A stretch of DNA of 64,000 bases from Collinsella tanakaei (GTDB lineage Bacteria; Actinomycetota; Coriobacteriia; Coriobacteriales; Coriobacteriaceae), in the NCBI RefSeq assembly GCF_016902615.1, contig NZ_JACJMB010000012.1, positions 1 through 64,000 of the forward strand, given 5' to 3'. This document shows, one piece after another, positions 25,492 through 49,387 of this stretch (the first letter of the stretch is position 1; every line of letters begins with the position of its first letter). Position numbers and translations under genes: made by a program. Under the pieces are notes generated by a model. The model was not told where the DNA came from and searched no databases. It saw nothing but the letters and a program-made list of their open reading frames with translations.

Positions 25492-25581
25492 TGTCCTCAT
25501 CGGGGACGGGGTAGTTTGGAGACATCCCGCGGCCGACCGGCCGCGGGATGTCTCCAAACTACCCCGTCCCCGATGAGGACA
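25492..25581. repeat. 90-bp perfect palindrome, 43-bp arms
   Basis: The arms (25492-25534 and 25539-25581) are perfect complements with a 4-nt loop, between mog and modA. The outer 28 bp of the right arm recur exactly at 24-51. The element starts 17 bp after the mog stop. It could act as a very stable terminator or be a member of a dispersed palindromic repeat family. Confidence 0.92.
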
Positions 25582-25655: not shown

Positions 25656-25726
25656 TGATGACCTGCAGACATGGGTTATATCCCGTGACGTGCTTTGCAT
25701 GATGCATATGAGGAAGGATGTGCGAA

Positions 25727-26602
25727 ATGGTACGCATGGAAATGAGCAGACGTGTCTTCACGGCGATGGGGGCCTCGCTCATGCTCGCGGCTGCCCTGGG
25801 CGGCTGCAGCGGCGGGACGGATGCTGCAACCGGATCCACGCCGGCTGGCAGCGGCGAGACGAGCGCGGCGACCGAGCAGGTCGAGCTCCAGATCTTCGCC
25901 GCGAATTCCCTCGAGAAGGCCATGCCCGAGGTCGAGGCGCTCTACACCGAGCAGACCGGCGTCACGTTCGCCGACACCCAGTACAAGGGTTCCGGTGACC
26001 TCGTCGAGCAGATGCGCGGCGGCGCCCCGGTCGACATCCTCATCACCGCGTCGTCGGGCACCATGGACGATGCCGTCGAGGCCGACCTGGTGGATGAGTC
26101 CACGCGCCAGGACATGTTCGTGAACGATCTCGTGATCGTGCGGGGCGTGGGTTCCGACATCCAGATCGATTCCCTTGAGGATGTGGCAAGCGTCGAGGGC
26201 AACATCGCCATCGGCGAGCCGGGTGCGGTGCCCGCGGGCAAGTACGCCAACCAGTCGCTCGCGAGCGTCGGCCTCTACACGAACGCCGACGGCGGGGGCG
26301 GCGAGTACGCGCCCGAGATTGCCGATAAGGTGAGCCTGGCCGACAAGGTCGGCACCGCTGCGCAGTACGTGTCGACCGGCGACTGCGCCATCGGGTTCGT
26401 CTACACCTCCGACGTGTACCGCTATGATGGCATCGAGGTCGCCTACACCTGCCCGGACGACTCGCACAAGCCGATCGTCTATCCCGGTGCCGTCTCCGCG
26501 AGCTCGAAGAACGCTGACGCTGCCGCCGACTTCCTCGAGTTCTGCATGACGGACGAGGACGCGCTCGCCATCTGGGCGGAGTACGGCTTCGAGCTGGCGT
26601 AG
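25727..26602 (+). CDS. modA: molybdate-binding lipoprotein ModA
   Basis: ModA captures molybdate (or tungstate) outside the membrane for the ModBC transporter. The 291-residue protein has a lipoprotein signal ending LGGC (Cys27). The binding-protein fold follows, with the family segments AANSLEKAMPEVE, VDILITASSGTMDDAV and NDLVIVRG. The ATG at 25727 is 9 nt after AGGAAGG; neighbouring in-frame ATGs at 25718 and 25736 are possible. It is the first gene of modABC. Confidence 0.92.
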   Translation: MVRMEMSRRVFTAMGASLMLAAALGGCSGGTDAATGSTPAGSGETSAATEQVELQIFAANSLEKAMPEVEALYTEQTGVTFADTQYKGSGDLVEQMRGGAPVDILITASSGTMDDAVEADLVDESTRQDMFVNDLVIVRGVGSDIQIDSLEDVASVEGNIAIGEPGAVPAGKYANQSLASVGLYTNADGGGGEYAPEIADKVSLADKVGTAAQYVSTGDCAIGFVYTSDVYRYDGIEVAYTCPDDSHKPIVYPGAVSASSKNADAAADFLEFCMTDEDALAIWAEYGFELA

Positions 26603-26681
26603 CGCACATCGCGTCAGGTGCGGTGCGCCGGGTTGCTATACTCGATGCGCATCCCGATGATGCGGGAAGATCCGTATGGGA

Positions 26682-26714
26682 GCGGCCCGGGACCTGTTCG
26701 TTCCGGGCCGCGTT
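26682..26714 (+). terminator. hairpin between modA and modB
   Basis: A 9-bp GC-rich stem (26682-26690 with 26703-26711) is followed by GTTT. Its position inside the operon suggests partial termination that makes the binding protein more abundant than the permease. Confidence 0.5.
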
Positions 26715-26778
26715 TGCGATAGCGGGCGGGCGCGGGTCCGGATCGGGCCCGCGCCCCGGCACGAGGGAGGTGGCCGCG

Positions 26779-28287
26779 ATGGTCGAGAGCGCTCGGCGCC
26801 GCGTGGTGATATGCGCGCTGCTTTTGTTCGCGTGCGCACTCGGACTCGCTTGCGTCCCGCGGGCGGCGCTGGCGGCGGACGAGACCGCGCAGGCGCAGGC
26901 GGACTCCGCCGTCGACGAGCAGGCGGGTTTCGGCCTGAACGGGTTCACCCGCTACATGCGCGGGGCCCAGCGCGCGGTTGACGGCGTGGACATCGGCTAT
27001 CGCTTTCCGGTGCCCGAGGGCGCCACGGTCACGGTCATCAACACGCCGCAGAGCATCTGGGTGCACGTTGAGGCCCAGGCAGCCGCTGCGGCGGGGTTCG
27101 ATGCGGACGACGCGAAGGACACGAATGCGTTGATCGCGCTCATCAAGCAGCTCGACGAGACGCATTCCCGCGGCGGGACGGTGCTTGCCGACGAGGACAA
27201 GCCGTGGCATGTCACCACGGACGCCGACGTCATCGAGGGCGCCTGCCGCTATGTCTTCGCCCTTGAGATGGGGGAGAGCCGCTACACCGCCGTGCAACCC
27301 GCCGAGATCCCGGCGGGATCGACGCCCGCGGAGGCGGCGGAGGCGGCCGGGCTCGACCTGGGGGACGCGGTCCTGTGGGTGGATGACGCCGAGCTCGTGG
27401 CGGCAGATGAGGTCGTCCGCGAGGCGGCTCCCACCTGGATGGACCGGCTGTACGAGTTCTTCTGCGGCATGGACTACCGCCCGTTTTGGGTCTCGCTCAA
27501 GACGAGCGCCGTCGCGCTCGCCGTGACGTTCGTACTCGGCCTTGTGGCCGCATGGAAGACCATGGGGACCTCGAGTCGCCTGAAGGGCCTGCTCGATTCG
27601 GTGTTCACCATCCCGATGGTGCTGCCGCCCACGGTCTGCGGCTTTCTGCTGCTGCTCGTGTTCGGCCAGTCGACGCCCGTGGGGCGCTGGCTGATCGATC
27701 ACGGCATCGCGCTCGTGTTCACGTGGCCCGCTGCCGTGATCAGCGCCATCGTGGTGAGCTTCCCGCTCATGTACCGTACCGCACTCGGCGCCTTCGAGGG
27801 GCTCGACGCGCAGATGCTCGATGCGGCGCGCACGCTCGGATGGTCTGAGGGACGGATCTTCCGCCAGCTCATGCTGCCGCTTGCGTGGCCCTCGATCGCG
27901 GCGGGCACCGTGCTCGCGTTCGCGCGCGCCATGGGCGAGTTCGGCTGCACCCTGTTTTTCGCCGGCAACTACGCGGGCGAGACGCAGACGATCCCCATCG
28001 CCATCTATTTCCAATGGATGAGCGGCAACACCGACGTCGCGCTGTTCTGGGTCATCGTCGTCATCCTGTTCAGCTTCCTCGTCATCCTGTTCATCAACAT
28101 CTACACGGCCCGCTCGCAGCGCTACCGCACCCGCGGCATGGCGGGCGCGTCCGCACGCGTCCGCACGCGCGAGGCGGCCTCTGCGCACGGTGACGGGCTG
28201 GAGGAGCACGGCGGCGACGCGCTGCGCATCGACCGCGAGGCGCTCGCGGAGCTTCTGCTCGGCGACGAGGACGCGGGAAGGGGGTAG
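26779..28287 (+). CDS. modB: molybdate ABC permease ModB with a large N-terminal extracytoplasmic domain
   Basis: The C-terminal part (about 235-445) is a normal ModB permease with five or six membrane segments and the ATPase-contact EAA loop (DAARTLGWSEG, about 348-358). Residues 1-33 form a signal-like segment (LLLFACALGLACVP), and about 34-230 are a soluble extracytoplasmic region. The family does not usually have this region and I do not recognise it. After the last helix an Arg/Ala/Glu-rich cytoplasmic tail of about 55 residues follows. At 502 residues it is twice the usual ModB length. The ATG at 26779 follows GAGGGAGG with 8-nt spacing. Confidence 0.87.
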   Translation: MVESARRRVVICALLLFACALGLACVPRAALAADETAQAQADSAVDEQAGFGLNGFTRYMRGAQRAVDGVDIGYRFPVPEGATVTVINTPQSIWVHVEAQAAAAAGFDADDAKDTNALIALIKQLDETHSRGGTVLADEDKPWHVTTDADVIEGACRYVFALEMGESRYTAVQPAEIPAGSTPAEAAEAAGLDLGDAVLWVDDAELVAADEVVREAAPTWMDRLYEFFCGMDYRPFWVSLKTSAVALAVTFVLGLVAAWKTMGTSSRLKGLLDSVFTIPMVLPPTVCGFLLLLVFGQSTPVGRWLIDHGIALVFTWPAAVISAIVVSFPLMYRTALGAFEGLDAQMLDAARTLGWSEGRIFRQLMLPLAWPSIAAGTVLAFARAMGEFGCTLFFAGNYAGETQTIPIAIYFQWMSGNTDVALFWVIVVILFSFLVILFINIYTARSQRYRTRGMAGASARVRTREAASAHGDGLEEHGGDALRIDREALAELLLGDEDAGRG

Positions 28288-28290
28288 GTC

Positions 28291-29370
28291 ATGTCGCTTT
28301 CGATCGATATCCAGAAGCGCTATCCGGCCTTCGAGCTTTCGGTTGCCCTCGAGGCGGGCGAGGAGCGCATCGGGCTGCTCGGCGCCTCGGGGTGCGGCAA
28401 GAGTTGCACGCTGCGCTGCATCGCGGGGGTGGAGACGCCGGATGCGGGCAAGATCGTCGTGAACGGCGTGACGTTTTTCGACTCCGCCGCGGGTATCAAC
28501 CTGTCGCCCCAGCAGCGCAAGTGCGCCCTGCTCTTCCAGAACTACCGGCTCTTCCCGAACCTTTCGGTCATCGATAACGTGCGCGCCGGCATGGGGGACA
28601 CGCATGATGCGGCCCGCCAGCGCGAGGACGCCCTGCGCTTTCTGCAGATCTTCGGCATGGCGGACTTTGCAGACCGCTATCCGGCGAACCTGTCCGGCGG
28701 TCAGCAGCAGCGCGTGGCGCTCGCCCGCATGCTCGCGGCCCGCCCGGGGATCCTCATGTTCGACGAGCCGTTCTCCGCGCTCGACTCCTATCTGAAAAGC
28801 GCGCTCGAGCAGAACCTACTCGACGTGTTCTCCGTCGTGCGGCGCACGGTCCTCTACGTGAGCCACGACATCGACGAGGCGTGCTGCCTGTGTGAGCGCA
28901 TCGCCGTCATGCACGACGGGCGCGTGGAGGAGGTCGGCACCGTCTCCGACCTCATGGAGCGCCCCGCCACGCTCGCGGCGCTGCGCCTCACGGGCTGCAA
29001 GAACACGAGCCCGGCGCGCAAGGTTGCTTCTTCGGTCGTCGAGGCGCTCGACTGGGGCATGACGTTCGACGTGGGCCACGAGGTGTCCGACGATGTCGCC
29101 TATCTGGGCGTGCGTGCGAGCTATTTCCACTTGGATCGCGAGCGCGCCGAAGGGGAGCGCGGCCGCAACAGCTATGAGCTGAAGGTCGCGCGCGTGAGCG
29201 ATACGCGCTTCGAGCGCTTGGTGCTGCTCGACGTCCCGCGCGCCGATGCGCCGAGCCGCCTGCAATGGCGCGTGAACAAGGTCGGCAAGACCGAGGCCGA
29301 GCTGCCGCACGAGGGGGATGTCCTGCGCATGCATTTCGACGCGCGGCGCATCCACCTGGTATCCCGCTGA
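28291..29370 (+). CDS. modC: molybdate ABC transporter ATPase ModC
   Basis: ModC powers molybdate import by ATP hydrolysis. The 359-residue protein has Walker A GASGCGKS (31-38), the ABC signature LSGGQQQ (134-140), Walker B LMFDEP (155-160) and a switch histidine in VSHDIDEA. The C-terminal 120 residues resemble a TOBE/MOP-type regulatory domain. It begins 3 nt after the modB stop, so it is co-transcribed and probably translationally coupled. Confidence 0.93.
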   Translation: MSLSIDIQKRYPAFELSVALEAGEERIGLLGASGCGKSCTLRCIAGVETPDAGKIVVNGVTFFDSAAGINLSPQQRKCALLFQNYRLFPNLSVIDNVRAGMGDTHDAARQREDALRFLQIFGMADFADRYPANLSGGQQQRVALARMLAARPGILMFDEPFSALDSYLKSALEQNLLDVFSVVRRTVLYVSHDIDEACCLCERIAVMHDGRVEEVGTVSDLMERPATLAALRLTGCKNTSPARKVASSVVEALDWGMTFDVGHEVSDDVAYLGVRASYFHLDRERAEGERGRNSYELKVARVSDTRFERLVLLDVPRADAPSRLQWRVNKVGKTEAELPHEGDVLRMHFDARRIHLVSR

Positions 29371-31078: not shown

Positions 31079-31133
31079 TTGCCGACAGCGCGAGAATAAT
31101 TTACTATCATTATCCTCACATTGAGGATAATGA
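31079..31133 (+). promoter_or_regulatory. promoter and palindromic operator of the double-cubane reductase operon
   Basis: The promoter is TTGCCG (31079-31084), 17-bp spacer, TACTAT (31102-31107). A 27-bp palindrome (12-bp arms 31107-31118 and 31122-31133) starts at the -10 and covers the transcription start. Its core ATTATCCT-N7-AGGATAAT recurs before yedF (37556-37582 region). The position suggests repression. Confidence 0.65.
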
Positions 31134-31238: not shown

Positions 31239-32402
31239 ATGACAGATCACGACCGCTACCCGCTTCCCCGCACCTTCGAGGAGTTCAACGAGCAGCGCCG
31301 CGCGAGCTTCGTCCGCGTGAAGGACTTCAAGCAGGCGGGCGGCCGCCTGGTGGGCTATCTGTGCAGCTACACGCCGCTCGAGGTCATCGACGCCGCCGGC
31401 GCGTCGGGCGTGGCGCTGTGCGGCACCTCCGATGAGGTGATTCCCACAGCCGAGCTCACGCTCCCGGCGAACCTCTGCCCGCTCATCAAATCGACCTTCG
31501 GGTTCGCATCCTCGGAGAAGTGCCCCTTCACCTACTTCTCCGACATCATCGTGGGCGAGACCACCTGCGACGGCAAGAAGAAGATGTACGAGCTTCTGGG
31601 CGAGCTCAAGCCCACGCATATCCTGCACCTGCCGCAGGGCCGCGACCGCGTCTGGGAGCGCGACGCCTGGTACGGTGAGGTGCGGCTGCTGAAGGAGCGC
31701 CTCGAGGAGCTCTACGACATCGTCATCACCGATGACGACCTACGGGCTGCGGCCCGTCGGCGCAACCGCATGCGCCGGGCCATGTGCGAGCTGTACGACC
31801 TGCAGACCAGTGCGCCCCCCGCCATGAGCGGCGTGGAGCTCATGAGCACGATGTTCGCCGCCACCTTCAGCTTCGATGTGGAGGAGTTCACCGGAAAGCT
31901 CGAGGCGCTGGCGGCGAAGCGCCGTCAGGAATTCGAGGCGGGGGAGCGCCCGGTCCCCGCGGATGCGAAGCGCATCCTCGTGACGGGCTGCCCCATCGGC
32001 GGCGTGATCAACAAGATCGGCAGGACGGTGGAGCGGATGGGCGGCGTGGTCGTGTGCGTCGACGACTGCTCGGGCGAGCGCACGCAGGCGAGCCTCGTCG
32101 ATGAGGATGCCGATGACATCCTGCGCGCCATCGCCGACCGCTATCTGGATATCAACTGCTCGGTCATGACGCCGAACGCGGCGCGGATGGACAACACGCT
32201 CGCCATGGTGGAGAAGTACCGGGTCGACGGCGTGATCGAGAGCGTGCTCACGGCCTGCCACACCTTCAACGTCGAGTCGACGCTCATGGAGCGCGCCGTC
32301 GAGGGGGCGGGCATCCCCTACATGAAGGTGGAGACCGATTACAGCGCGGGCGACCAGGGGCAGATCGACACACGCGTCGCCGCATTCATCGAGACGCTTT
32401 GA
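31239..32402 (+). CDS. double-cubane-cluster anaerobic reductase (HgdB/2-hydroxyacyl-CoA dehydratase family)
   Basis: This family binds unusual iron-sulfur clusters and is reduced by an ATP-driven activase. Single-subunit members with a double-cubane [8Fe-9S] cluster reduce small molecules; their natural substrate is unknown. The 387-residue protein has conserved cysteines in NLCPLIKS (Cys80), TTCDGKKK (Cys110) and TACHTF (Cys340), plus a central TGCPIGG. It lacks the separate alpha subunit of true hydroxyacyl-CoA dehydratases. The ATG follows GAAAGG. The activase follows 74 bp later. Confidence 0.87.
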
Positions 32403-32476
32403 TATCGGTCGGGACGGGTTCCGTCGCGCGCGGGGCGCGGCGGGTGCGCGGGCCTCAAGGGAGGAGGATGCCTCAC

Positions 32477-33250
32477 ATGGCGGGGATTTTCGGAGTGGGC
32501 GTCGACATCGGCTCGACGGCCACCAAGGTCGCAGTTCTCGACGGGGAGGGCGCGCTCGTCCATACCGCGCTCATGCCGACGGGGTTTTCCAGCGTCGATG
32601 CGGCACGCCGTGTCGAAGAGGAGCTTGCGGGCGCGGGCTTCGCGCCGGACGCCCCCGGCACGCGCGTCGTGGCGACGGGCTACGGTCGCGTCGCCGTCCC
32701 GTATGCCGACAAGGTGGTGACCGAGATCACCTGCCACGGCATCGGCGCGACGCGCCTGTTCGGGCAGGCGGGCACCGTGATCGACGTCGGCGGGCAGGAC
32801 ACGAAGGTGATTCAGCTCAAGGGCGGCCGCGTGGTGAAGTTCGCCATGAACGATAAGTGCGCCGCCGGCACGGGGCGGTTCCTAGAGATCATGGCGGACA
32901 GGCTCGGCGTGTCGCAGGAGGAGCTCTCGGCCCTTGCGCGCACGGGTGCCGAGACGAAGATCTCGAGCATGTGCACCGTGTTCGCGGAGTCCGAGGTCAT
33001 CTCGCTGATTGGGCGCGGGGTCGCGCGCGAGGACATCGCGCGGGGCGTGATCGACTCGGTGGTCTCCCGCGTGGCGGCGCTCGCGGGCCAAGCGCCGGGC
33101 GGCCCGTTCTTCCTCACGGGGGGCCTGTGCGAGAACGGCTACGTCATCGAGCGGCTCGGAGTTGCGCTGGGCACCCCGGTGCGGACCTGCCCCAAGGCTC
33201 GCTACGCCGGCGCCCTCGGGGCCGCCGAACGCGCTCGGGCCCTTGCATAG
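32477..33250 (+). CDS. ATP-dependent activase of the double-cubane reductase (HgdC family)
   Basis: The activase is a homodimeric ASKHA ATPase bridged by one [4Fe-4S] cluster; ATP hydrolysis drives electron transfer to its partner. The 257-residue protein has phosphate-1 GVDIGSTATK (8-17) and phosphate-2 VIDVGGQDTK (101-110). The cluster cysteines are in NDKCAAGTG (Cys128) and SSMCTVFAE (Cys166). Two ATGs, 32468 and 32477, share the AGGGAGGAGG site; the later has better spacing. It is co-directional with the reductase and probably shares its promoter. Confidence 0.88.
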   Translation: MAGIFGVGVDIGSTATKVAVLDGEGALVHTALMPTGFSSVDAARRVEEELAGAGFAPDAPGTRVVATGYGRVAVPYADKVVTEITCHGIGATRLFGQAGTVIDVGGQDTKVIQLKGGRVVKFAMNDKCAAGTGRFLEIMADRLGVSQEELSALARTGAETKISSMCTVFAESEVISLIGRGVAREDIARGVIDSVVSRVAALAGQAPGGPFFLTGGLCENGYVIERLGVALGTPVRTCPKARYAGALGAAERARALA

Positions 33251-33295: not shown

Positions 33296-33347
33296 ATGTG
33301 ATAGGATATCCCGCGTGTGAAATGTCTCGCATCGCATGAGGGGGGCC

Positions 33348-34535
33348 ATGCCAGCAGGATTGCTGCCGATCATCTACCTTGCGTTCATCAGCCTCGGGCT
33401 TCCTGATTCGGCGCTGGGGTCCGCGTGGCCCGTCATGGGCCCCTCGCTCGGCGCGGGCCTGTCGTGGGTCGGCATCGTCACCATGATCATCTCGGCGGGC
33501 ACCATCGTGTCGAGCCTCATGTCCGTGCGGGTGGTCGACCGCTTCGGCACGGGCAGGGTGACCGCGGTGAGCGTCGCGCTCACCGCGCTGGCGATGCTCG
33601 GCTTCTCGCTCGCCCGGGAGTTCTGGCAGATCCTGTTGCTGGCCATACCCTACGGCCTCGGCGCGGGCGCGGTCGACGCGGCCCTCAACGCGTTTGTGGC
33701 CGTGCATTACAAAAGCCAGCACATGAGCTGGCTGCACTGCATGTGGGGCGTCGGTGCGAGCGGCGGGCCCATGATCATGGGCGCCTGCCTGGGCTTCGGC
33801 ACCTGGGGCGACGGCTTCCGCGCGCTCGGGTTTTTGCAGCTTGCCGTCGTGGTCGTGCTGACCCTGTCGCTTCCGCTGTGGCGCGACCGCACGCTGCCGA
33901 AGGGGGCGGATGCGGCCGGTGAAGGGGGCGCCTCCGCCCGCCATTCCCGCCGCGAGCTTCTGCGCACCGACGGCGTCGTGGCCGTCCTCATCTCCTTCTT
34001 CTGCTACTGCGCGCTCGAGAGCACCTGCGGCAACTGGGCGTCATCGTATTGCACGCTCGCGGCGGGCGTCTCCGCCGAGACCGCGGCGATGTGGGCGTCG
34101 CTGTTCTACATCGGCATCACGGTGGGGCGCCTGGTGAGCGGTTTCCTTTCGTTCAAGATCTCCGACGCCGGCATGATCCGCCTGGGCCAGGTGCTGGTCG
34201 CGGCAGGTATCGCGCTGATAGTTCTGCCATGGGACGGTACCGTCCTTATAGCCGGCCTCGTGCTGGTCGGTCTCGGCTGCGCGCCGATCTACCCCTCGAT
34301 CATCCACGCCACGCCCGCGCGCTTCGGCGCCGACGTCGCTCTCGAGCTCACCGGCATGCAGATGGCGTTCGCCTACGTGGGATCGCTCGCCATGTCGCCG
34401 CTGTTCGGGCTTATCGCGCAGACGATCGATATCTCGCTGTATCCGGCTTATCTCGCCGTGCTGCTGGTGGTGATGGTCATCGCGGCGGAGAAGGTGAACC
34501 GCGCGACACGCGCTCGCGTGAGGTGCGCCCATTAG
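33348..34535 (+). CDS. MFS permease (fucose-permease-like)
   Basis: This 395-residue protein has twelve predicted membrane segments. It fits the FucP-like major facilitator group: an early LPDSALGSAWP, a central loop of about 30 hydrophilic residues (about 187-215), and the second-half GLGCAPIYPSIIHATPARFG. The ATG at 33348 follows GAGGGG; 33336 is possible. It may be sugar-specific, or export/import something used by the reductase; the substrate is unknown. It follows the reductase-activase pair by 97 bp with its own palindrome upstream. Confidence 0.8.
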   Translation: MPAGLLPIIYLAFISLGLPDSALGSAWPVMGPSLGAGLSWVGIVTMIISAGTIVSSLMSVRVVDRFGTGRVTAVSVALTALAMLGFSLAREFWQILLLAIPYGLGAGAVDAALNAFVAVHYKSQHMSWLHCMWGVGASGGPMIMGACLGFGTWGDGFRALGFLQLAVVVVLTLSLPLWRDRTLPKGADAAGEGGASARHSRRELLRTDGVVAVLISFFCYCALESTCGNWASSYCTLAAGVSAETAAMWASLFYIGITVGRLVSGFLSFKISDAGMIRLGQVLVAAGIALIVLPWDGTVLIAGLVLVGLGCAPIYPSIIHATPARFGADVALELTGMQMAFAYVGSLAMSPLFGLIAQTIDISLYPAYLAVLLVVMVIAAEKVNRATRARVRCAH

Positions 34536-35124: not shown

Positions 35125-36006
35125 CTACTTCCCGTCCTTGAAGTCGGGGACCTCGTGCCAGCGCTGGCGGAAGTAGTGAGCTGCCAGCTTGGGCTTGCGA
35201 TCGCGCGTGAACAGGCCCTTCTTGTTGCCCTGGACGCGCAGCAGGCCGGGCACGGTGATGAAGTCGGCGAAGTTCCAGACCTGCTCGCCGCAGACGAAGT
35301 CGTGCGCATCGAGCACGGCGTTATTCTCCTTGTAGTACTTCACCTGGTACTCCTCGGTGTAGAGGCTGGGGTTCGAGGAGGTGTCGTGCAACCCTATGAC
35401 GGTATCGGCGCCGTACTCGGTCATCATGACCGGCTTGCCCAGTTTGCCCCACTCCTCGAGTTCCGCCGCGAAGGCCTGGCTGGCGCAGTCGAGTTCGTTG
35501 CCCATGGTGTACCAGCCGTAGTAGCGGTTCAGGCGGATGACGTCTGAAAGCTTGGAGGCCACATCCTGGTCGACCGGCTTGCCGCTCTGGACGTCTACGA
35601 GCGTGCAGGGACGGCTCTGCGGGTCGAGCTCGTGCGCCAGGTCGAAGAGCGGCTTGAAGTGCTCATAGGCGCCCTCGCTCGTGGAATCGGGCTCGTTGGC
35701 GATGGACCACATGACCACGCAGGCATGGTTCTTGTCGCGCGCGATGAGGTCGCGGATGATGTCCTTGTGGTGCTCTTGGGTCTTGATGCCGTTCACCGGA
35801 TCGTAGGTGGACACGCCCTGTCCGGAGAAGTTCGCGCCGCCGCCGAAGCTCGCGTTGATGCCCACGGCCGTGGTCTCGTCGATGACGACGATACCCTCGG
35901 CGTCGCACAGGCGCATCATCTCCTCGGAGTAGGGGTAGTGGCTCGTGCGGAAGGAGTTCGCGCCCTGCCAGTGCATGAGGGAGATGTCCTTCGCGTACGT
36001 GGGCAC
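35125..36006 (-). pseudogene. uidA: 5'-truncated beta-glucuronidase (GH2 catalytic half)
   Basis: The frame encodes about the last 294 residues of a glycoside hydrolase family 2 beta-glucuronidase (full length about 600). It starts near the GANSFRTSHYPYSEEMM segment. Both catalytic glutamates are present, in IANEPDS (acid/base) and MTEYGAD (nucleophile). The N-terminal sugar-binding and immunoglobulin-like domains are absent. Upstream of 36006 the reading turns to unrelated Arg/Pro-rich sequence and then tRNA genes, so the break is real and not a frameshift. It is probably a deletion remnant without activity. Confidence 0.85.
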
Positions 36007-36168
36007 GTTCTGCCCGCGTCCCGCCGCTCGTGTACCGGTGCGGGGCTTTCTGCCATTGCGGGGTCTTGCGGGGGGCACGGGCCCTGCGGTGCGCGCCCTG
36101 TCGGCGGGGCGCTGCGCGCATACGAAAACGATCCCGGAAGCCTGCGGCTACCGGGATCGCGAATCTCC

Positions 36169-36242
36169 TGGAGCGGGCGACGGGAATCGAACCCGCGTCA
36201 TCAGCTTGGAAGGCTGGGGTTCTACCATTGAACTACGCCCGC
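36169..36242 (-). tRNA. tRNA-Gly(TCC)
   Basis: The minus strand folds as a tRNA with acceptor GCGGGCG/CGCCCGC, anticodon loop CTTCCAA (anticodon TCC), T-loop GGTTCGATTCC and an encoded CCA end. It lies next to the uidA break and a tRNA-Pro gene. Confidence 0.95.
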
Positions 36243-36247
36243 GTGTA

Positions 36248-36324
36248 TGGTCGGGACGACAGGATTCGAACCTGCGACATCCTGCTCCCAAAGCAGGCGC
36301 GCTACCAAACTGCGCCACGTCCCG
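36248..36324 (-). tRNA. tRNA-Pro(TGG)
   Basis: The minus strand folds with acceptor CGGGACG/CGTCCCG, anticodon loop TTTGGGA (anticodon TGG), T-loop GGTTCGAATCC and encoded CCA. It is 5 bp from tRNA-Gly and probably co-transcribed with it. Confidence 0.96.
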
Positions 36325-37521: not shown

Positions 37522-37584
37522 TTGACGGGTTCCATGTAAGGGAAATTTATTATTATGATTATCCTCAGAATAAGGATAATCATA
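37522..37584 (+). promoter_or_regulatory. promoter and palindromic operator of yedF
   Basis: TTGACG (37522-37527) is followed after 18-20 bp by TTTATT/TATTAT (37546-37553). A perfect 12-bp-arm palindrome (37554-37565 and 37573-37584) begins right after the -10. Its core ATTATCCT-N7-AGGATAAT is the same as at 31109-31131 before the double-cubane reductase. Repression by a shared regulator is inferred. Confidence 0.65.
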
Positions 37585-37625: not shown

Positions 37626-38261
37626 ATGGTCGAGCTCAACTGCTTCGGGGAGACATGCCCCAAGCCCGTCATCCGTGCCATGAAGGCACTCCAGGAACCG
37701 GGATCCGCCGGTGCGGTGCGCGTGCTCGTGGACAACACGGTCGCCGTCGAGAACCTGAAGCGCCTCGCGGCGAGCAAGCAGGGCGCGGTGTCCGTCGCCG
37801 AGGTGCAGGGCGGATGGGCCGTCGAGATCTCCGGCGTCAGCGAGGCGGATGCCGAGTGGCCCTCCGGTGAGGAGGCTGCGCTCGCCGAGGCGGGCATCGC
37901 GTGCCCGGCGCCCGAGGCGGCCCGTCAGCAGGTGACGGTGTTCGTCGGGTCGCGCGCGCTCGGTCAGGGATCTCCCGAGCTCGGTGACATACTCCTGAAG
38001 GGCCTCGTCTACGCCATGGCGCAAGCCGAGGAGCCCCCACACCGCATCGTCTTCTTCAACGACGGCGCCGCGCTCACCTGCGAGGGCTCCCCGCTCGTCG
38101 ACGACGTCCGCGAGCTCGAGCGCCGCGGCTGCGAGGTGCTGACCTGCGGGACGTGCCTGGATTTCCACGGCCTGCGCGACCGGCTCGCCGTGGGCGGCGT
38201 GACGAACCTGTACGCCATCTCCGAGTTCGTGCTCGGCACCGACAAGGTCGTCACGCTCTAG
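37626..38261 (+). CDS. yedF: selenium-metabolism protein YedF (TusA/SirA-like plus DsrE-like)
   Basis: YedF proteins accompany SelD and are thought to carry or deliver reduced sulfur or selenium. The 211-residue protein has an N-terminal TusA-like domain with CPKP (11-14) and a C-terminal DsrE-like domain with LTCEGS and LTCGTCLDF cysteines. The ATG at 37626 follows AAAGGA with 5-nt spacing; earlier in-frame starts would place the operator inside the gene. It is the first gene before the desulfurase, DUF3343 carrier and selD. Confidence 0.9.
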   Translation: MVELNCFGETCPKPVIRAMKALQEPGSAGAVRVLVDNTVAVENLKRLAASKQGAVSVAEVQGGWAVEISGVSEADAEWPSGEEAALAEAGIACPAPEAARQQVTVFVGSRALGQGSPELGDILLKGLVYAMAQAEEPPHRIVFFNDGAALTCEGSPLVDDVRELERRGCEVLTCGTCLDFHGLRDRLAVGGVTNLYAISEFVLGTDKVVTL

Positions 38262-38574: not shown

Positions 38575-39720
38575 ATGATCTACCTGAACAACGCCGCCAC
38601 CACCATCCAGAAACCGCCCGAGGTCGCCCAGGCGGTCGTCGCGGCCATGGCGGGCGCGGGCAGCAGCGCGCGCGGGGCGTCTGCCGACGACCTCGCCGCG
38701 GCGCGCTCGGTCGCCGGTGCGCGCGTGCACCTGGCGCGCCTGTTCGGGTTTTCGCACCCCGAGCGCGTCATCTTCACCATGAACGCGACGATGGCTCTGA
38801 ACATCGCCCTGTTCGGCCTGCTCAAGCCGGGCGACCACGTGATTACGACGGATTTCGAGCACAACTCCGTGCTGCGCCCGCTGCACGAGCTCGAACGCCG
38901 CGGGGTGATCGGGCTCGACTACGTGAGGGCCGATGCCGCAGGGCGCCTGCACACCGAGGAGCTCGAGGGGCTGTTTCGCCCGAACACCGCCGCCGTCGTG
39001 GCGACGCACGCCTCGAACCTCACCGGCGCGCTCACCGACGCGGCGGCGCTCGCCGCGTCCGCCCATGCCCACGGTGCCCGTTTCATCCTCGATGCGGCGC
39101 AGACGGCGGGCGCGCTTCCGGTGGATGCGGCCGCGCTCGGGGCGGATATCATCTGCTTCACCGGGCACAAGGCCCTGATGGGGCCCCAGGGCACCGGCGG
39201 CCTGCTCGTGGCGCCCGATGTGGAGCTCGCCCCGCTCATCCTGGGCGGCACCGGGGTGAAGAGCGCCGATCCCTTCCAGCCTGCGAGCTGGCCCGAGCAC
39301 CTGGAGGCGGGCACCCTGAACAGCCAGGGCATCGCGGGCCTCGACGCGGCGGTGGGCGTTCTGCTCGATGTGGGCGTCGAGCACGTGGCCGCCTATGAGG
39401 CGAGGCTCCGCGAGCGCTTCTGCGCGGGCGTGGGGGATATCCCCGGCATCACGGTCTATGGCGCGCATGACGGGCAGGCGCACACCGGCGTCGTGGCGCT
39501 GAACCTCGCCGGTATGGATTCGTCGACGCTGGCGGACCGGCTGGCGCAGGACTTCGGCATCGCCACGCGCGCGGGCCTGCACTGCGCCCCGCGCATGCAC
39601 GCGGCGCTCGGCACCCTCGAGCAGGGGGCGGTGCGCTTCTCGTTTTGCTGGTACACCAGCGCGTCCGACATCGATGCGGCCGTCAGCGCGCTGCGCGAGA
39701 TCGCGCGCGCACGGCGCTAG
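38575..39720 (+). CDS. cysteine desulfurase-like class V aminotransferase (selenium-associated)
   Basis: This PLP enzyme removes sulfur (or selenium) from cysteine (selenocysteine) as a persulfide/perselenide. The 381-residue protein has the N-terminal YLNNAATT, the PLP lysine in TGHKALMG (Lys199) and the catalytic cysteine in GLHCAPRMH (Cys337). It resembles the desulfurase family encoded beside selD and yedF in anaerobes, not IscS of the ISC pathway. The ATG follows a weak GGGCGAAAG site. The DUF3343 gene begins 18 bp after its stop. Confidence 0.88.
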   Translation: MIYLNNAATTIQKPPEVAQAVVAAMAGAGSSARGASADDLAAARSVAGARVHLARLFGFSHPERVIFTMNATMALNIALFGLLKPGDHVITTDFEHNSVLRPLHELERRGVIGLDYVRADAAGRLHTEELEGLFRPNTAAVVATHASNLTGALTDAAALAASAHAHGARFILDAAQTAGALPVDAAALGADIICFTGHKALMGPQGTGGLLVAPDVELAPLILGGTGVKSADPFQPASWPEHLEAGTLNSQGIAGLDAAVGVLLDVGVEHVAAYEARLRERFCAGVGDIPGITVYGAHDGQAHTGVVALNLAGMDSSTLADRLAQDFGIATRAGLHCAPRMHAALGTLEQGAVRFSFCWYTSASDIDAAVSALREIARARR

Positions 39721-39738: not shown

Positions 39739-39981
39739 ATGCCTCGAGCAACCGAGCCTCGCATCGTCGTCTCGTTCGCGAGCACGTTCGACGCCATGGA
39801 GGCCGAGCGGCTCTGCCAGCAGGCCGGTGTCGCCGGGCGCATCATCCCGCTGCCCGTGGAGATCGATGCGGAGTGCGGCCTCGCGTGGGCCATGCCCGCG
39901 ACCGAGGCGGCGCTCGCCGCCTTCAACGATGCGGTCGCGGGACATCTCGTACCCGAGGGCATCTACCGACTCATGCTGTAG
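39739..39981 (+). CDS. DUF3343 putative Se/S carrier protein
   Basis: DUF3343 proteins are small partners of YedF, SelD and desulfurases, suggested to carry selenium or sulfur on a cysteine. The 80-residue protein has FASTFDAMEAERLC at the N-terminus and the conserved cysteine in DAECGLAW (about residue 46). The ATG at 39739 follows a GAGGTAGGG site. It sits between the desulfurase (18 bp before) and selD (64 bp after), which fits a relay from desulfurase to SelD. The family function is predicted only. Confidence 0.82.
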   Translation: MPRATEPRIVVSFASTFDAMEAERLCQQAGVAGRIIPLPVEIDAECGLAWAMPATEAALAAFNDAVAGHLVPEGIYRLML

Positions 39982-40045
39982 CAAACCAGGCGCCCGCAGC
40001 CCGAGGCGGAGCGGGCGGGCGCGCGTCCGAAAGAAGGATGAGCCC

Positions 40046-41086
40046 ATGGAGACCACCGTCAAGCTCACGAAGCTCGCCGATTGCGCCGGGTGCGGCGCGA
40101 AGGTGGGGGCAGGGGAGCTCGCGAGCCTGTTCGAGGGCTTTCCCGACGTGCGCGACCCCAACCTGCTCGTGGGCTTCGACCATGCCGACGACGCCGCGGT
40201 CTACAGGCTGCGTGACGACCTCGCCATCGTGCAGACGCTCGACTTCTTCCCGCCCATCGCGGACGACCCGTACACGTTCGGCCAGATCGCGGCGGCCAAC
40301 GCCCTGTCCGACATCTACGCCATGGGCGCCCGTCCCATCACGGCGCTGAACATCATGGCGGTGCCGGAGGACATGCCGAAGGAGGCCGTGCGCGAGATCC
40401 TGCGCGGCGGCGCGTGCAAGGTCGCCGAGGCGGGGGCCGTCGTGGCGGGCGGCCACAGCATCTACGACGACGAGCCGAAATACGGCCTGTCGGTCACGGG
40501 CGTCATCGACCCGGCGCGGCTGCTCAGAAACGACACGGCGCGCCCCGGCGACGTTCTCATCTACACCAAGCCCGTGGGCATCGGCGTCATGACGACGGCG
40601 CTCAAAGGCGGCCTGGCCGACGAGGAGGCGCGTTCGCGCGTCGAGGGGATCATGTGCACGCTGAACCGCGCCGCGGCCGAGGCGGCACGCCCCTTCGCCG
40701 TCCACGCCTGCACCGACATCACGGGGTTTGCCGTGCTCGGGCACGCGCTCGAGCTCGCTCAGGGCTCGAACACCCAGGTCGTGCTCGATGCCGACGCGTT
40801 CGCGTTCTTACCGGGCGCCCTCGATTTCGCCGCCATGGGCATCCTGCCGGCGGGTGTCTACCGCAACCGCCGCTACGCGGAGTCCGAGGTGGATATCGAC
40901 GCGCGCGTCCCGCTTGCGGTGGCGGACCTGCTGTTCGACCCGCAGACCTCGGGCGGCCTGCTGTTCTCGGTCGACGCCGCCGACGCGGATGCCCTCATGG
41001 CGGCCCTTGCCGGCGCGGTCCCCGCGGCGCAGCGCATCGGGCGCGTCGGGGCCTACACCGGCGGCGCGCGCGTGCGCGTGCGGTGA
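40046..41086 (+). CDS. selD: selenide, water dikinase SelD
   Basis: SelD makes selenophosphate from selenide and ATP. The 346-residue protein aligns with E. coli SelD through DCAGCGAK. Cys16 and Lys19 match the essential Cys17 and Lys20, and the following Cys is Ala. The selenium site is Cys, not Sec, and the DDAAVY metal site and DPQTSGGLL motif are present. The ATG at 40046 follows AAGAAGGATG-like sequence. No selA, selB, tRNA-Sec, yqeB or yqeC is in the window, so use for labile-selenium hydroxylases or selenouridine is open. Confidence 0.93.
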   Translation: METTVKLTKLADCAGCGAKVGAGELASLFEGFPDVRDPNLLVGFDHADDAAVYRLRDDLAIVQTLDFFPPIADDPYTFGQIAAANALSDIYAMGARPITALNIMAVPEDMPKEAVREILRGGACKVAEAGAVVAGGHSIYDDEPKYGLSVTGVIDPARLLRNDTARPGDVLIYTKPVGIGVMTTALKGGLADEEARSRVEGIMCTLNRAAAEAARPFAVHACTDITGFAVLGHALELAQGSNTQVVLDADAFAFLPGALDFAAMGILPAGVYRNRRYAESEVDIDARVPLAVADLLFDPQTSGGLLFSVDAADADALMAALAGAVPAAQRIGRVGAYTGGARVRVR

Positions 41087-44739: not shown

Positions 44740-45126
44740 GGTCACTCCTATCGGTCGTGGGATGCAGGACGCGGCCATGATGGCACGCCGGGCGAGCAGT
44801 GTTTCAGGCCTGTCGCGAAAAGCCGAATCGTAACGAGCGCGAATTCGTCTCTCATCGGAATCGAAATCGAACCGCAACGTTGGAAACGAGAAATTTATCG
44901 CGTTGCTGCATGTCGGGTGGCTGCGGGCGGCGGGCGCGGCACGGCGGGCGGGGGTTGTCCGCTGCGGGTTCGCTTTCGTGCCGTCGGCGGGCCATCATGG
45001 GCTGCCGCGTGCGGCCAGGCGCGCATTTTGTGCTCGCACCGACGCTTGAGCGCACATGTTGTGCCGCTCCGGTACACTTAACGAGTTCTGCCAAGGAATC
45101 GACCTATCTTGAGAGATGGGGGAGGA
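44740..45126. other. 387-bp divergent intergenic region
   Basis: It separates amt (minus) from the hydroxylase operon (plus). It contains repeated GAATCG/GAAATCG motifs at 44823-44875, also seen once before glnB (43174-43181 region), and ends in the hydroxylase leader. No gene was found; promoters are not certain. Confidence 0.4.
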
Positions 45127-45978
45127 ATGCTCAGATTCGGAAGATATGTCCGAGCAGCCAATGTCGAGGACGCGCTGGAGGTGCTCCGGTTTCGCAAAGG
45201 GGCGCAGATCCTGGGCGGCGGCATGTGGATGCGCCTGTCCGACCGCACGATACCCTGCGTGATCGACCTGTCGGACTGCGGCCTCGACAAGATCGAGGAG
45301 ACTGAGGACGAGTACCGCATCGGCGCTTACGTGACGCTGCGCGACCTCGAGTGCGCGGGCGTGCTGAACGACGCCTGCGACGGTGTGCTCGCCGCAGCGG
45401 TCCGCGACATCGTGGGCGTGCAGTTCCGTCGCTCGGCGACCGTCGGCGGCAGCGTCTTCGGGCGCTTCGGCTTCTCCGACGTGATCTGCGCGCTGCTCGC
45501 GCTCGACACCGAGGTCGAGCTCGTCGAGGCCGGCCGCGTGCCGCTCGCCACCTTCATCGACATGCCCTACGAGCTTGACGTCCTCACCCATATCATCGTG
45601 AAGAAGCACGACTATCAGGCCTCCTACCAGTGCCTGCGCAAGGCCGCAACCGATTTTGCGACCGTCAACGCCTGCGCCGCGCGCTGGGACGGCGCCTGGC
45701 ACCTTGCCGTGGGCGCCCGTCCGGCCAAGGCGCGCCTGCTTTCGGGCGCCGAGGCGGGCGTCGTCTCCGCGGAGCCTTCCTGCGACGAGCTCGCGCACGC
45801 CATCGAGGCCGTGCGCGGCCTGACCTATAGCTCCAACCTGTGGGGCTCCGAGCGCTATCGCCGCCATCTGGCCGGCGTGCTCGCGGCGCGCGCCCTTGTC
45901 GAGGCCGCCCGCTACACCTCGCCCGAAGGCTTGGAGGCGGCCCGCGCCGCATGCGCCCGTGAGGAGGCTATCCGATGA
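45127..45978 (+). CDS. molybdenum hydroxylase FAD subunit (xanthine-dehydrogenase family)
   Basis: This subunit passes electrons from the Fe-S clusters to NAD+ or another acceptor. The 283-residue protein has the FAD-binding segments AQILGGGMW and the ATVGGSVFGRFGFSDV loop of the CO-dehydrogenase/XDH medium-subunit fold. The family N-terminus fits the ATG at 45127, but its GGAGG is only 1 nt away. A TTG at 45109 with AAGGA upstream is an alternative start. It overlaps the next gene as ATGA. Confidence 0.86.
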   Translation: MLRFGRYVRAANVEDALEVLRFRKGAQILGGGMWMRLSDRTIPCVIDLSDCGLDKIEETEDEYRIGAYVTLRDLECAGVLNDACDGVLAAAVRDIVGVQFRRSATVGGSVFGRFGFSDVICALLALDTEVELVEAGRVPLATFIDMPYELDVLTHIIVKKHDYQASYQCLRKAATDFATVNACAARWDGAWHLAVGARPAKARLLSGAEAGVVSAEPSCDELAHAIEAVRGLTYSSNLWGSERYRRHLAGVLAARALVEAARYTSPEGLEAARAACAREEAIR

Positions 45979-46514
45979 GCGGAAAGACGATGGACATCTC
46001 GATCAACCTGAACGGCAAGCGGGTCGCCGCGAGCGTATCCCCCGACCTGTCGCTGCTCGCCTTCGTGCGCGCCCAGGGCTGCAAGTCCGTGAAGTGCGCC
46101 TGCGAGACCACGAACTGCGGCCTGTGCACGGTGTGGCTCGATGGCCAGGCCGTGCTCTCGTGCGCCGTGCCCATGGCGCGCGCGAACGGCCACGCGGTCA
46201 TGACGCTCGAGGGCCTGCAGGCGGAGTCCGCCGACTTCGCGCGCTGCATGGCCGAGGAGGGCGCCGAGCAGTGCGGATTCTGCTCGCCCGGCCTCATCAT
46301 GAACGTGCTCTCCATGGAGCGCGAGATCCGCGAGCGCGCCGCGGCGGCGGGCGAGGAGCCGCAGATGCCCTCCGACGAGGAGATGGACTCCTATCTGGCG
46401 GGCAACCTGTGCCGCTGTACGGGCTATACAAGCCAGCGCCGCGCCATCCGCCGCTATATGGCGAGCCGCTTCGCCGCGTGCGCGCAAGCCGTCGTCGCCG
46501 GACAGGAGGAGTAA
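45975..46514 (+). CDS. molybdenum hydroxylase [2Fe-2S] subunit
   Basis: This subunit carries two [2Fe-2S] clusters between the molybdenum site and FAD. The 179-residue protein has the plant-ferredoxin-type cluster in KCACETTNCGLCTVW with LSC, and the helical cluster in QCGFCSPGLIM and NLCRCTGY. A loop of about 20 residues rich in Glu/Ala separates the last two motifs, longer than usual. It starts inside the FAD gene (ATGA overlap) and ends 3 nt before the large subunit. Confidence 0.92.
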   Translation: MSGKTMDISINLNGKRVAASVSPDLSLLAFVRAQGCKSVKCACETTNCGLCTVWLDGQAVLSCAVPMARANGHAVMTLEGLQAESADFARCMAEEGAEQCGFCSPGLIMNVLSMEREIRERAAAAGEEPQMPSDEEMDSYLAGNLCRCTGYTSQRRAIRRYMASRFAACAQAVVAGQEE

Positions 46515-46517
46515 CCC

Positions 46518-48941
46518 ATGAGCATGATCGTGACGCGCGAGAGCGAGCGCGCAAACCTCTCCTGCGTGGGCGCCCCCGTCGTGAAGCGCGACGCCGCGGC
46601 GCTGCTGTCCGGCAAACCGGTCTTCACGAACGACCTGGCGCCCGCAGACGCCCTTATCGTGAAGATCCTGCACAGTCCGCACGCCTTCGCCCGCATCCGC
46701 GACATCGACACGTCGCGCGCGCTGAAGGTGCCGGGGGTCGTCGCCGTCTACACCTATAAGGATGTGCCGAACAAGCGCTTCACCCTCGCCGGCCAGAGCT
46801 ATCCCGAGGCGAGCCCATACGACCGCCTGATCCTCGACCAGGTCGTGCGCTACGTGGGCGACGAGGTCGCCATCGTGGCCGCCGAGACCGAGGACGCCGC
46901 CCGCAGCGCCTTGAAGCTCATCAAGGTCGACTACGAGGTCATGGAGCCCGTGCTCGACTTCACGCGCGCCAAGGGCAACCCGGTCGTCATCCACACCGAG
47001 GACAACTACCATGTCAACGGGGCGTGGATCAACAACGACCGCGCCCGCAACGTCGTGGCCTCGGGCCTGTCGGCCCATGGCGACCTCGAGGCGGCCTTCG
47101 CCGAATGCGACATCGTCGTCGACGAGACCTACCACACGCTTGCCGACAACCAGGGCATGATGGAGACGTTCCGCTCCTTCGCCGAGATCGACGCGTACGG
47201 CCGCATCACCGTGACCGCCTCCACCCAGGTGCCCTTCCACGTGCGCCGCATGGTCGCCAACGCCCTCGACATCCCGCAGTCGCGCGTGCGCGTGGTGAAG
47301 CCGCGCATCGGCGGCGGCTTCGGCGCCAAGCAGAGCGGCTGCAACGAGATCTTCTGCGCGTTCGTCACGGCCAAGACCGGTCGTCCGTCGAAGGTCGTCT
47401 ACACGCGCGAGGAGACGCTCGCGTCCTCGAACTCGCGCCATGAGATGCAGATGCACGTGCGCCTGGGCGCGAAAAACGACGGCACGATCGTGGCCATCGA
47501 CCTGTACACGCTCTCCAACCAGGGCGCCTACGGCGAGCACGGCCCCACGACCGTGGGCCTATCCGGCCACAAGAGCCTGCCGCTGTACAACCACGCGAAG
47601 GCGACCCGCTTCGCATTCGACGTCGTCTACACGAACACGATGCCGGCCGGCGCCTATCGCGGCTACGGTGCGACGCAGGGCCTGTTCGCTGTCGAGTCCG
47701 CCGTGAACGAACTCGCCGACCGCCTGGGCATGGACCCCTGCGAGATCCGCTTCAAGAACCTCGTGACGCCGGGCGAGCGCCTGGCGCAGTACGACGACAA
47801 CGAGCTGTACTCCTGCAACGTCTCGGCGTGCCTGCGCCGCGCGATGGAGATGATCGGCTGGGACGACAAGCCGCTCGCGCGCGATCTGGGCGACCGGGTG
47901 CGCGGCCTGGGCGTCGCGCTCTCCATGCAGGGCTCGGCTATCGCCAAGATTGACATCGGTTCGGTCGATCTGCGTTTGGAGGAGACCGGCTTCTATACGC
48001 TCTCCGTCGGCGCGACCGACATGGGCACCGGCTCCGACACGATCCTTGCGCAGTTTGCCGCCGAGGCGCTGCGCTGCGACACCGATCGCATCGTCGTGCA
48101 CGGCGTCGATACCGACGTGTCGCCCTTCGACACCGGCTCCTATGCGAGCGCATCGACCTATCTGACCGGCATGGCGACTATCAAGGCCTCAGAGCGCCTC
48201 ATCGCCGAGCTGCGCCAGCGCGCCGCCGGCTTCATGGGCGTCGATGCCGACGACGTGCTGTTCGACGGTGAGCGCCTGCTTGCGTTCGCCCCCGGCACGC
48301 TGGCTGAAGGGGGCGCCGACATCCCCGAGTTCTCCGGCATCTACGACGACGTCGAGGCCATCGCGCGCAGCTACCGGTTGGCCGAGCGCGCCCCGGAGGC
48401 TGAGCCTGTGGCCGAGATGACGCTTGCCGAGCTCGCGAACAGGCTCGTCGCGGGCGGCGACGGCGACTGCCTGACCGCGCACGCCGCGGCGAGCTCGCCC
48501 ACGAGCCCCCCGCCGTTCATGAGCGGTATCGCCGAGGTTGACGTCGACAAGGCCACCGGCAAGGTCACGGTGGTCGACTACGTGAGCGTTGTCGACTGCG
48601 GCACCGTCGTGAACGAGAACCTCGCGCGCGTGCAGGCCGAGGGCGGCATCGCCCAGGGCATCGGCATGGCGCTCACCGAGGACGTGCAGTACAGCGGCCG
48701 CGGCCGCATGCGCACCCGCTCGCTCATGACCTACAAGATGCCGACGCGTCTCGATGTGCCGGACATCCGCGTCGAGTTCGCCCCGAGCTACGAGCCCACG
48801 GGCCCGTTCGGTGCGAAGTCGATTGGCGAGGTCGTCATCAACACCCCGTCGCCGGCCATTGCGAGCGCCGTTGCCCACGCGACGGGCCACTACGTTCGGA
48901 CGCTGCCCATCACGCCGGAGAAGGCGCTGTTCGGCGAGTAG
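46518..48941 (+). CDS. molybdenum hydroxylase large (molybdopterin) subunit, xanthine-dehydrogenase-like
   Basis: The 807-residue subunit binds the molybdenum cofactor and hydroxylates an N-heterocycle or related substrate. It has RIGGGFGAKQ, the substrate-channel arginine in GAYRGYGATQG, the cofactor-contact QGSAIAKID region, and GTGSDTILAQF. The catalytic glutamate is Glu771 in KSIGEVVIN. Xanthine is a reasonable guess, but purine, nicotinate or other substrates are possible. A selenium-dependent form is possible because selD and yedF are nearby. The FAD, Fe-S, Mo order is one tight operon. Confidence 0.88.
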   Translation: MSMIVTRESERANLSCVGAPVVKRDAAALLSGKPVFTNDLAPADALIVKILHSPHAFARIRDIDTSRALKVPGVVAVYTYKDVPNKRFTLAGQSYPEASPYDRLILDQVVRYVGDEVAIVAAETEDAARSALKLIKVDYEVMEPVLDFTRAKGNPVVIHTEDNYHVNGAWINNDRARNVVASGLSAHGDLEAAFAECDIVVDETYHTLADNQGMMETFRSFAEIDAYGRITVTASTQVPFHVRRMVANALDIPQSRVRVVKPRIGGGFGAKQSGCNEIFCAFVTAKTGRPSKVVYTREETLASSNSRHEMQMHVRLGAKNDGTIVAIDLYTLSNQGAYGEHGPTTVGLSGHKSLPLYNHAKATRFAFDVVYTNTMPAGAYRGYGATQGLFAVESAVNELADRLGMDPCEIRFKNLVTPGERLAQYDDNELYSCNVSACLRRAMEMIGWDDKPLARDLGDRVRGLGVALSMQGSAIAKIDIGSVDLRLEETGFYTLSVGATDMGTGSDTILAQFAAEALRCDTDRIVVHGVDTDVSPFDTGSYASASTYLTGMATIKASERLIAELRQRAAGFMGVDADDVLFDGERLLAFAPGTLAEGGADIPEFSGIYDDVEAIARSYRLAERAPEAEPVAEMTLAELANRLVAGGDGDCLTAHAAASSPTSPPPFMSGIAEVDVDKATGKVTVVDYVSVVDCGTVVNENLARVQAEGGIAQGIGMALTEDVQYSGRGRMRTRSLMTYKMPTRLDVPDIRVEFAPSYEPTGPFGAKSIGEVVINTPSPAIASAVAHATGHYVRTLPITPEKALFGE

Positions 48942-49068: not shown

Positions 49069-49137
49069 CTTCATTGTCTTCGTGCGAAAGGCACACGAGG
49101 GGCGGCTACGTGTGCCTTTCGCACGAAGACAATGAAG
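49069..49137. repeat. long perfect palindrome, 29-bp arms
   Basis: Arms at 49069-49097 and 49109-49137 are exact complements around an 11-nt loop. It is between the hydroxylase terminator and tRNA-Leu, with no T run. Its sequence is unrelated to the palindromes at 13031 and 25492. Confidence 0.9.

Positions 49138-49303: not shown

Positions 49304-49387
<84 letters not shown>

Follow-up and report, generated by a model that had tools for sequence, protein, structure and literature searches.

The window, that is, the whole 64-kb stretch of Collinsella tanakaei DNA analysed here, carries an operon for a double-cubane-cluster anaerobic reductase (DCCP), its activase and an MFS transporter, followed downstream by a second operon, yedF-csd-DUF3343-selD, for selenium handling. 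Between them lie FocA, tRNAs and what looks like a gene remnant (Table 1). The apparent remnant, a 317-aa frame on the minus strand (35125-36078) between the MFS gene and a tRNA pair (36172-36324), resembles part of a GH2 beta-galactosidase/glucuronidase. The molybdate uptake genes modABC lie shortly before the DCCP operon, together with moeA and mogA (identified by ORF reading), and a xanthine dehydrogenase-type operon lies at 45109-48941. Two long perfect inverted repeats were also seen: one of 44 bp with a 2-nt centre (TGTCCTCATCGGGGACGGGGTAGTTTGGAGACATCCCGCGGCCG, 25492-25581) between mogA and modA, and one of 29 bp with an 11-nt loop (49069-49137) downstream of the molybdenum hydroxylase operon and near a tRNA (49304-49384). 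In a relative (G046, L156), a long perfect hairpin, unlike the 25492-25581 repeat in sequence, lies upstream of yheO. A preliminary description of this DNA had noted no regulator gene nearby, which agrees with the window gene calls (only some ORFs were scanned against the family library).

Table 1 Features of the window discussed in the text
Feature	Position	Strand	Basis and remarks
modA-modB-modC, molybdate uptake genes	25718..29370	+	modB/modC by ORF reading; upstream of DCCP operon
Possible sigma-70 promoter, DCCP operon	31082..31110	+	CCGACA, 17 nt, TATCAT; alternative -10 TACTAT 31102-31107 (preliminary description)
Degenerate GATAAWTTATTATC, AATAATTTACTATC	31095..31108	+	2 mismatches; overlaps possible -10 of copy 1
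Putative operator, copy 1	31107..31133		12-bp arms TCATTATCCTCA/TGAGGATAATGA; core ATTATCCT-N7-AGGATAAT at 31109-31131
DCCP, double-cubane-cluster anaerobic reductase	31239..32402	+	NF040772 479 bits, cut-off 350; PDB 6eno match 2.1e-78
DCCP activase, ATP-dependent, BcrA/BadF type	32399..33250	+	TIGR00241, PF01869
MFS transporter, third gene of DCCP operon	33336..34535	+	PF07690
Degenerate GATAAWTTATTATC, GGAAATTTATTATT	37541..37554	+	3 mismatches; adjoins operator copy 2
Putative operator, copy 2	37554..37584		12-bp arms TATGATTATCCT/AGGATAATCATA; core at 37558-37580
yedF (TusA + DsrE-type selenium metabolism protein)	37626..38261	+	TIGR03527 173.6 bits, cut-off 110
csd, cysteine desulfurase / selenocysteine lyase-like	38578..39720	+	TIGR01977 401 bits, over cut-off
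DUF3343, putative Se/S carrier	39739..39981	+	PF11823
selD, selenide water dikinase	40040..41086	+	TIGR00476

A 23-bp palindrome, ATTATCCT-N7-AGGATAAT, precedes both operons with 0 mismatches, ~105 nt upstream of the DCCP gene and ~40 nt upstream of yedF. When extended, copy 1 reads TCATTATCCTCA-cat-TGAGGATAATGA and copy 2, which grows outwards, reads TATGATTATCCT-cagaata-AGGATAATCATA, so that each has 12-bp perfect arms, around a centre of 3 and 7 nt, respectively. The preliminary description was thus right about the shared palindrome and its 12-bp arms, though the arms are staggered between the copies; it was also right that the window holds no third copy, the two being the only matches at ≤3 mismatches (chance expectation 0.01; two matches in 0 of 100 dinucleotide shuffles). 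The genome-wide search that it had proposed likewise placed the palindrome only before these two operons: at ≤2 mismatches the 2.45 Mb of this genome hold no other copy. At 3 mismatches there were just two further, weak matches (L003 and L004, the former among polysaccharide-type genes), which we took as chance and rejected as a third copy. Both copies had been said to begin at the end of a -10 element: -10-like hexamers do abut them (TACTAT, 31102-31107; TTTATT/TATTAT, 37546-37553), but a consensus scan shifted the -10 of copy 1 to TATCAT (31105-31110; CCGACA 17 nt upstream, a consensus match only) and found no sigma-70 promoter at copy 2.

To place the palindrome in a wider frame, we compared 67 Coriobacteriaceae genomes (this genome, G000, and 66 relatives). 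At ≤2 mismatches it occurred in four of them (G000, G020, G026 and G036), with six perfect copies, before DCCP in G000 and G026 and before yedF in all four. Every pair of these copies is identical at 16/16 bases of the core arms, whereas identity of the flanks is mostly 20-45% and only 2-5 of the 7 spacer bases agree. Arms that stay fixed as spacers and flanks vary point to a protein operator; common descent of the whole leader is disfavoured, because the flanks would then have been preserved as well. A relaxed form, TTATCY-N8/9-RGATAA, matched eight times in G000, G020, G026 and G036 (2, 2, 3 and 1), always at the DCCP, yedF or divergent yheO//xdhA promoter (the last in G020 and G026), and its reversed control had no match in these four genomes. 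Less perfect TTATC-N10-GATAA pairs stand upstream of DCCP in G020 and G036. Taken together, the perfect, relaxed and less perfect sites mark both operons in 4/4 genomes and a third locus in two, and the palindrome is almost certainly a true regulatory site common to the DCCP and yedF operons, as judged from these sequence comparisons. Rather than recurring at many unrelated promoters, it has one or two copies per genome, at the same operons. Its conservation upstream of orthologues is partial: it is kept in 4/67 genomes and missing at most orthologues, and what is conserved more widely is a theme of GATAA/TTATC half-sites, chiefly GATAAWTTATTATC.

Three further observations concern palindromes of this kind. 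Upstream of DCCP in G026 (L106:641-694), tandem palindromes, one with 2 mismatches, are spaced by 31 bp, about three helical turns, which suggests cooperative binding. G020 has a 1-mismatch match (C12:111067) between genes read as CRISPR-associated. A different conserved palindrome, TTATCTGTCCTAGACAGATAA, another operator candidate, occurs once per genome in Collinsella G009, G012, G013, G015 and G017.

The genes of the two operons are joined more directly in relatives. Most Collinsella have DCCP-DCCP-activase-selD-yedF-DUF3343-csd in one direction, and G004 has DCCP-activase-yedF-csd-DUF3343-selD-ridA. In a class-wide sample of 40 further loci, counted by hand, DCCP lay within ~9 kb of at least one of yedF, csd, DUF3343 and selD at 24 of the 29 loci belonging to families f2, f3 and f4 of the same order, and at 0 of the 11 loci sampled from other orders of the class. 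This clustering in most relatives gives the selenium link a basis beyond the palindrome. In the window the cluster is split, and the palindrome would re-join its two operons in regulation. The suggestion that the reductase acts in selenium or sulfur chemistry is therefore supported for selenium, from gene cluster and regulon, and gives way for generic sulfur handling, the theme of the predicted regulon being selenium-dependent molybdenum hydroxylases (SDMHs) and uric acid.

The family-wide element GATAAWTTATTATC was derived by eye from yheO, uacT, yedF and DCCP promoters and then searched genome-wide. Across the 67 genomes it had 53 sites at ≤1 mismatch, against 7 for a reversed-pattern control: 23 at yqeB//yqeC, 9 at DCCP, 6 at ridA, 4 at yheO1, 3 at yedF, 1 at modA and 7 elsewhere. 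Thus, 46 of 53 fell at regulon promoters, and the remainder equals the control count. Five of the six perfect matches were at yheO, yedF or ridA promoters. Because promoters of these kinds had suggested the element, its yheO, yedF and part of its DCCP sites are not independent; the independent test consists of the yqeB//yqeC, ridA, modA and C. aerofaciens-type DCCP sites, which were unused in the derivation. Half of the regulon sites (23/46) represent one orthologous promoter, yqeB//yqeC, and count as one event or few (placement was checked directly for 21 and inferred for G039 and G041). As a general feature before yqeB the element had to be rejected: it is absent in G000, G020, G026, G036, G046 and others, and present there only in C. 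aerofaciens-type genomes. The genes behind the sites belong mostly to SDMHs and uric acid breakdown.

Within the window, GATAAWTTATTATC at ≤3 mismatches occurs only at 31092/31095 and 37541, directly upstream of the two palindromes, which ties the palindrome to the family-wide theme. The half-sites run in opposite order, TTATC first and GATAA second across N11 in the palindrome, GATAA first with N4 in GATAAWTTATTATC, so that two factors are possible. Genomes of the C. aerofaciens group carry the palindrome GTCTGATAATTAATTATCAGAC, or one related to it, before the DCCP operon. No operator of either type was found at the window's modABC, and relative G008 has one before modA. A 1-mismatch GATAAWTTATTATC in this genome (L149:12074, C1:189073), beside YheO2 and upstream of an SsnA-like amidohydrolase fragment, was counted as 'other' and may belong to the regulon.

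The third locus links the site to purine metabolism. In G020 it lies between xdhA (NF043082, 1122 bits) and the gene for a YheO-like PAS_6/HTH_22 regulator; on one side follow xdhB, xdhC, a BMP-family protein (by reading), a purine permease, ssnA and ygfK, and on the other a second YheO-like gene and ridA. The reductive uric acid pathway begins with ssnA, ygfK and a xanthine dehydrogenase homologue (PMC12507026), which are also SDMH markers (PMC2276186). In the window species' own uricolytic cluster (L149:8289-9523, contig C1), a different ORF lies between yheO1 and xdhC; xdhA and part of xdhB, which are retained at this place in G020 and G026, seem to have been lost from it. Considering the sites and the genes behind them, a selenium/SDMH regulon very probably holds both window operons.

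Selenium use in this genome fits such a regulon's theme. Neither SelB (TIGR00475) over its cut-off nor selenouridine synthase (TIGR03167) was found in G000, and yqeB scored over cut-off (C1:147477-148241); yqeC was seen in G005. selD without SelB or selenouridine synthase, with yqeB present, defines the orphan-SelD condition, under which the destination of selenium is likely to be the labile cofactor of molybdenum hydroxylases. The C. aerofaciens-type genome G005, unlike the window species, has SelB over cut-off (C1:366963-368069), and selenocysteine use may differ within Collinsella.

Which protein might bind these sites? The candidate is YheO1, encoded outside the window (C1:186731-187396), with PAS_6 (PF08348, 118 bits) and HTH_22 (PF13309, 64 bits) domains over their cut-offs. 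Orthologues with >70% identity were confined to three of the four palindrome genomes (G000, G020 and G026), and in G020 and G026 a palindrome-type site lies upstream of yheO1; the promoter of yheO1 in this genome has GATAA-N7/N10-TTATC pairs without the palindrome. Homologues of ~50% identity lie beside yedF-csd-DUF3343-selD, with ridA between, in G004, G064 and G065 (two other genera), and in 15 of the 16 genomes inspected ridA is next to yheO or one gene away, the contig of G000 ending first. The recognition helix ISEPSVYRYLQK is nearly invariant (16 YheO1 rows), in line with a conserved half-site. Of 34 YheO1-positive loci, 30 had the motif at the Se/DCCP operon, as did 1 of 6 YheO1-negative loci; Fisher's P = 0.001 for this association is only indicative, the loci being phylogenetically related. 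The exception, G042, is an 87% complete genome with the element and no YheO1 found; conversely, G001, G006 and G065 have YheO1 and lack the element at yedF. A close YheO1 subtype as the full explanation of the palindrome is broken by G036, whose YheO1 is only of the 45-48% type.

Searches found no close sequence homologue of YheO1 in the PDB and no operator or selenium or purine regulon for the YheO family in the literature searched; E. coli YheO ChIP-exo is mentioned only in a methods section (PMC6892915). The YheO-like Cj1387c represses the adjacent ridA in C. jejuni (PMC4519771), which makes repression the better guess for YheO1. The single repressor that the preliminary description predicted for both operons is supported, as a single regulator, by the genome-wide specificity of the motif; its repressive action is inferred from the family, and the predicted regulon is larger than two operons.

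We propose that one dimeric transcription factor would switch the DCCP-activase-MFS and yedF-csd-DUF3343-selD operons together through the palindrome, both being part of a wider regulon through which SDMHs for purines and uric acid are made and used. Relatives would add yqeB//yqeC (selenium-molybdenum cofactor maturation), yheO, ridA, xdhA//yheO and, once, modA to this regulon. As the likeliest factor, the YheO-like PAS_6-HTH_22 protein (C1:186731-187396) would bind GATAA/TTATC half-sites around the transcription start, repress when its PAS domain is without a signal, probably a purine- or selenium-related one, and also control its own gene. To this full proposal (palindrome as operator, purine/uric acid SDMH regulon, YheO1 as factor) we assign a probability of about 0.6; YheO1 itself is a probable rather than a secure choice of factor.

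The same selenium/SDMH operator could instead serve another regulator, for example of the LysR_Se, Fur, GntR or TetR type, with GATAAWTTATTATC as the YheO site or a promoter feature. The palindrome and GATAAWTTATTATC do differ in half-site order and spacing, G036 has the palindrome without a close YheO1, and other taxa show a link between a LysR_Se subfamily and Sec genes (PMC5322559). Yet in three relatives no regulator other than YheO1 was seen beside the selenium operon, relaxed palindromes also lie upstream of yheO1 itself, and palindrome and GATAAWTTATTATC both carry GATAA half-sites and adjoin at both window promoters. On balance we consider a different regulator unlikely, if a serious competitor.

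Both palindromes would form hairpins if transcribed whole, and the yedF leader folds better than shuffled sequences (z = -2.5), as might be expected of an RNA element in the 5' leader (a stability element, an attenuator or part of a riboswitch). The DCCP leader, however, folds no better than shuffles (z = -0.9), neither palindrome has an Rfam match, the arms are identical in six copies without compensatory change, and the predicted -10 elements adjoin or overlap the left arm, which would put the start of transcription inside it. We therefore rejected the hairpin reading as very improbable. That the palindrome is a mobile or repeated element, whether REP-like or MITE-like, or a product of chance has next to no probability: the window does hold the other long palindromes at 25492-25581 and 49069-49137, but this one recurs only once or twice per genome, each time at the same operons and with flanks that share no common sequence, and the low expectation given above speaks against chance.

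The proposed YheO1 regulon resembles known systems in part. YheO1 has the domain architecture of the YheO-like PAS_6-HTH_22 repressors C. jejuni Cj1387c/CfiR and E. coli YheO, over Pfam cut-offs, and its homologues share the ridA (L-PSP) neighbour reported as common in the family (PMC4519771). Unlike the genes of these regulators, yheO1 stands with uricolytic, SDMH and selenium genes, and its predicted sites reach selenium supply and DCCP. Genes of the SDMH/orphan-SelD trait (yqeB, ssnA, ygfK, yedF, a csd-type lyase and selD) are present here, as in the consulted parts of Haft & Self 2008 and Zhang et al. 2008, the latter of which lists C. aerofaciens with the third Se trait. These parts deal with gene co-occurrence and contain no operator, regulator or DCCP, whereas we predict an operator and a DCCP link. 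For Slackia heliotrinireducens, a STRING table (PMC5322559, Table 1) lists a '2-hydroxyglutaryl-CoA dehydratase subunit' and a 'CoA-substrate-specific enzyme activase' with YedF, DUF3343 and the Sec lyase; the two look like DCCP and its activase, and in the portion consulted the pair stands without comment, outside the authors' named candidate Se genes. In Clostridioides difficile, DioR/SigL (yqeB, pbuX) is a proposed regulator of SDMH and purine genes too (PMC11448449), although DioR is a sigma-54 enhancer-binding protein unrelated to YheO. Uric acid gene clusters have been reported in Collinsella aerofaciens (PMC12542679).

DCCP keeps the cysteines of PDB 6eno in alignment and is accordingly expected, from its sequence, to be an ATP-activated low-potential reductase. 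We take 6eno to be the double-cubane cluster protein of Carboxydothermus, likewise a reductase paired with an ATP-dependent activase, and we know of no established physiological substrate for the double-cubane reductase. By comparison with the Carboxydothermus protein, the selenium gene context here suggests a substrate area. Gene clustering and predicted regulon membership support a role of DCCP in selenium or SDMH chemistry, where it may act in selenide release, selenium-carrier reduction or cofactor maturation, or in an unrelated electron-accepting step. As a tentative extension, DCCP could be dedicated to SDMH maturation, for example by releasing selenide reductively at low potential or delivering it to the cofactor, and the YheO-family PAS regulator could, in Coriobacteriaceae, act as a master switch that ties molybdate uptake, selenium supply and cofactor maturation to uric acid degradation.

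The analysis offers a testable, sequence-level prediction of a regulon through which common gut bacteria would use selenium without selenocysteine, together with a predicted operator and role for a YheO-type regulator. It would place a double-cubane reductase inside selenium cofactor metabolism. Gut-bacterial uric acid breakdown bears on gout, so that a predicted switch of this pathway would be of practical interest.
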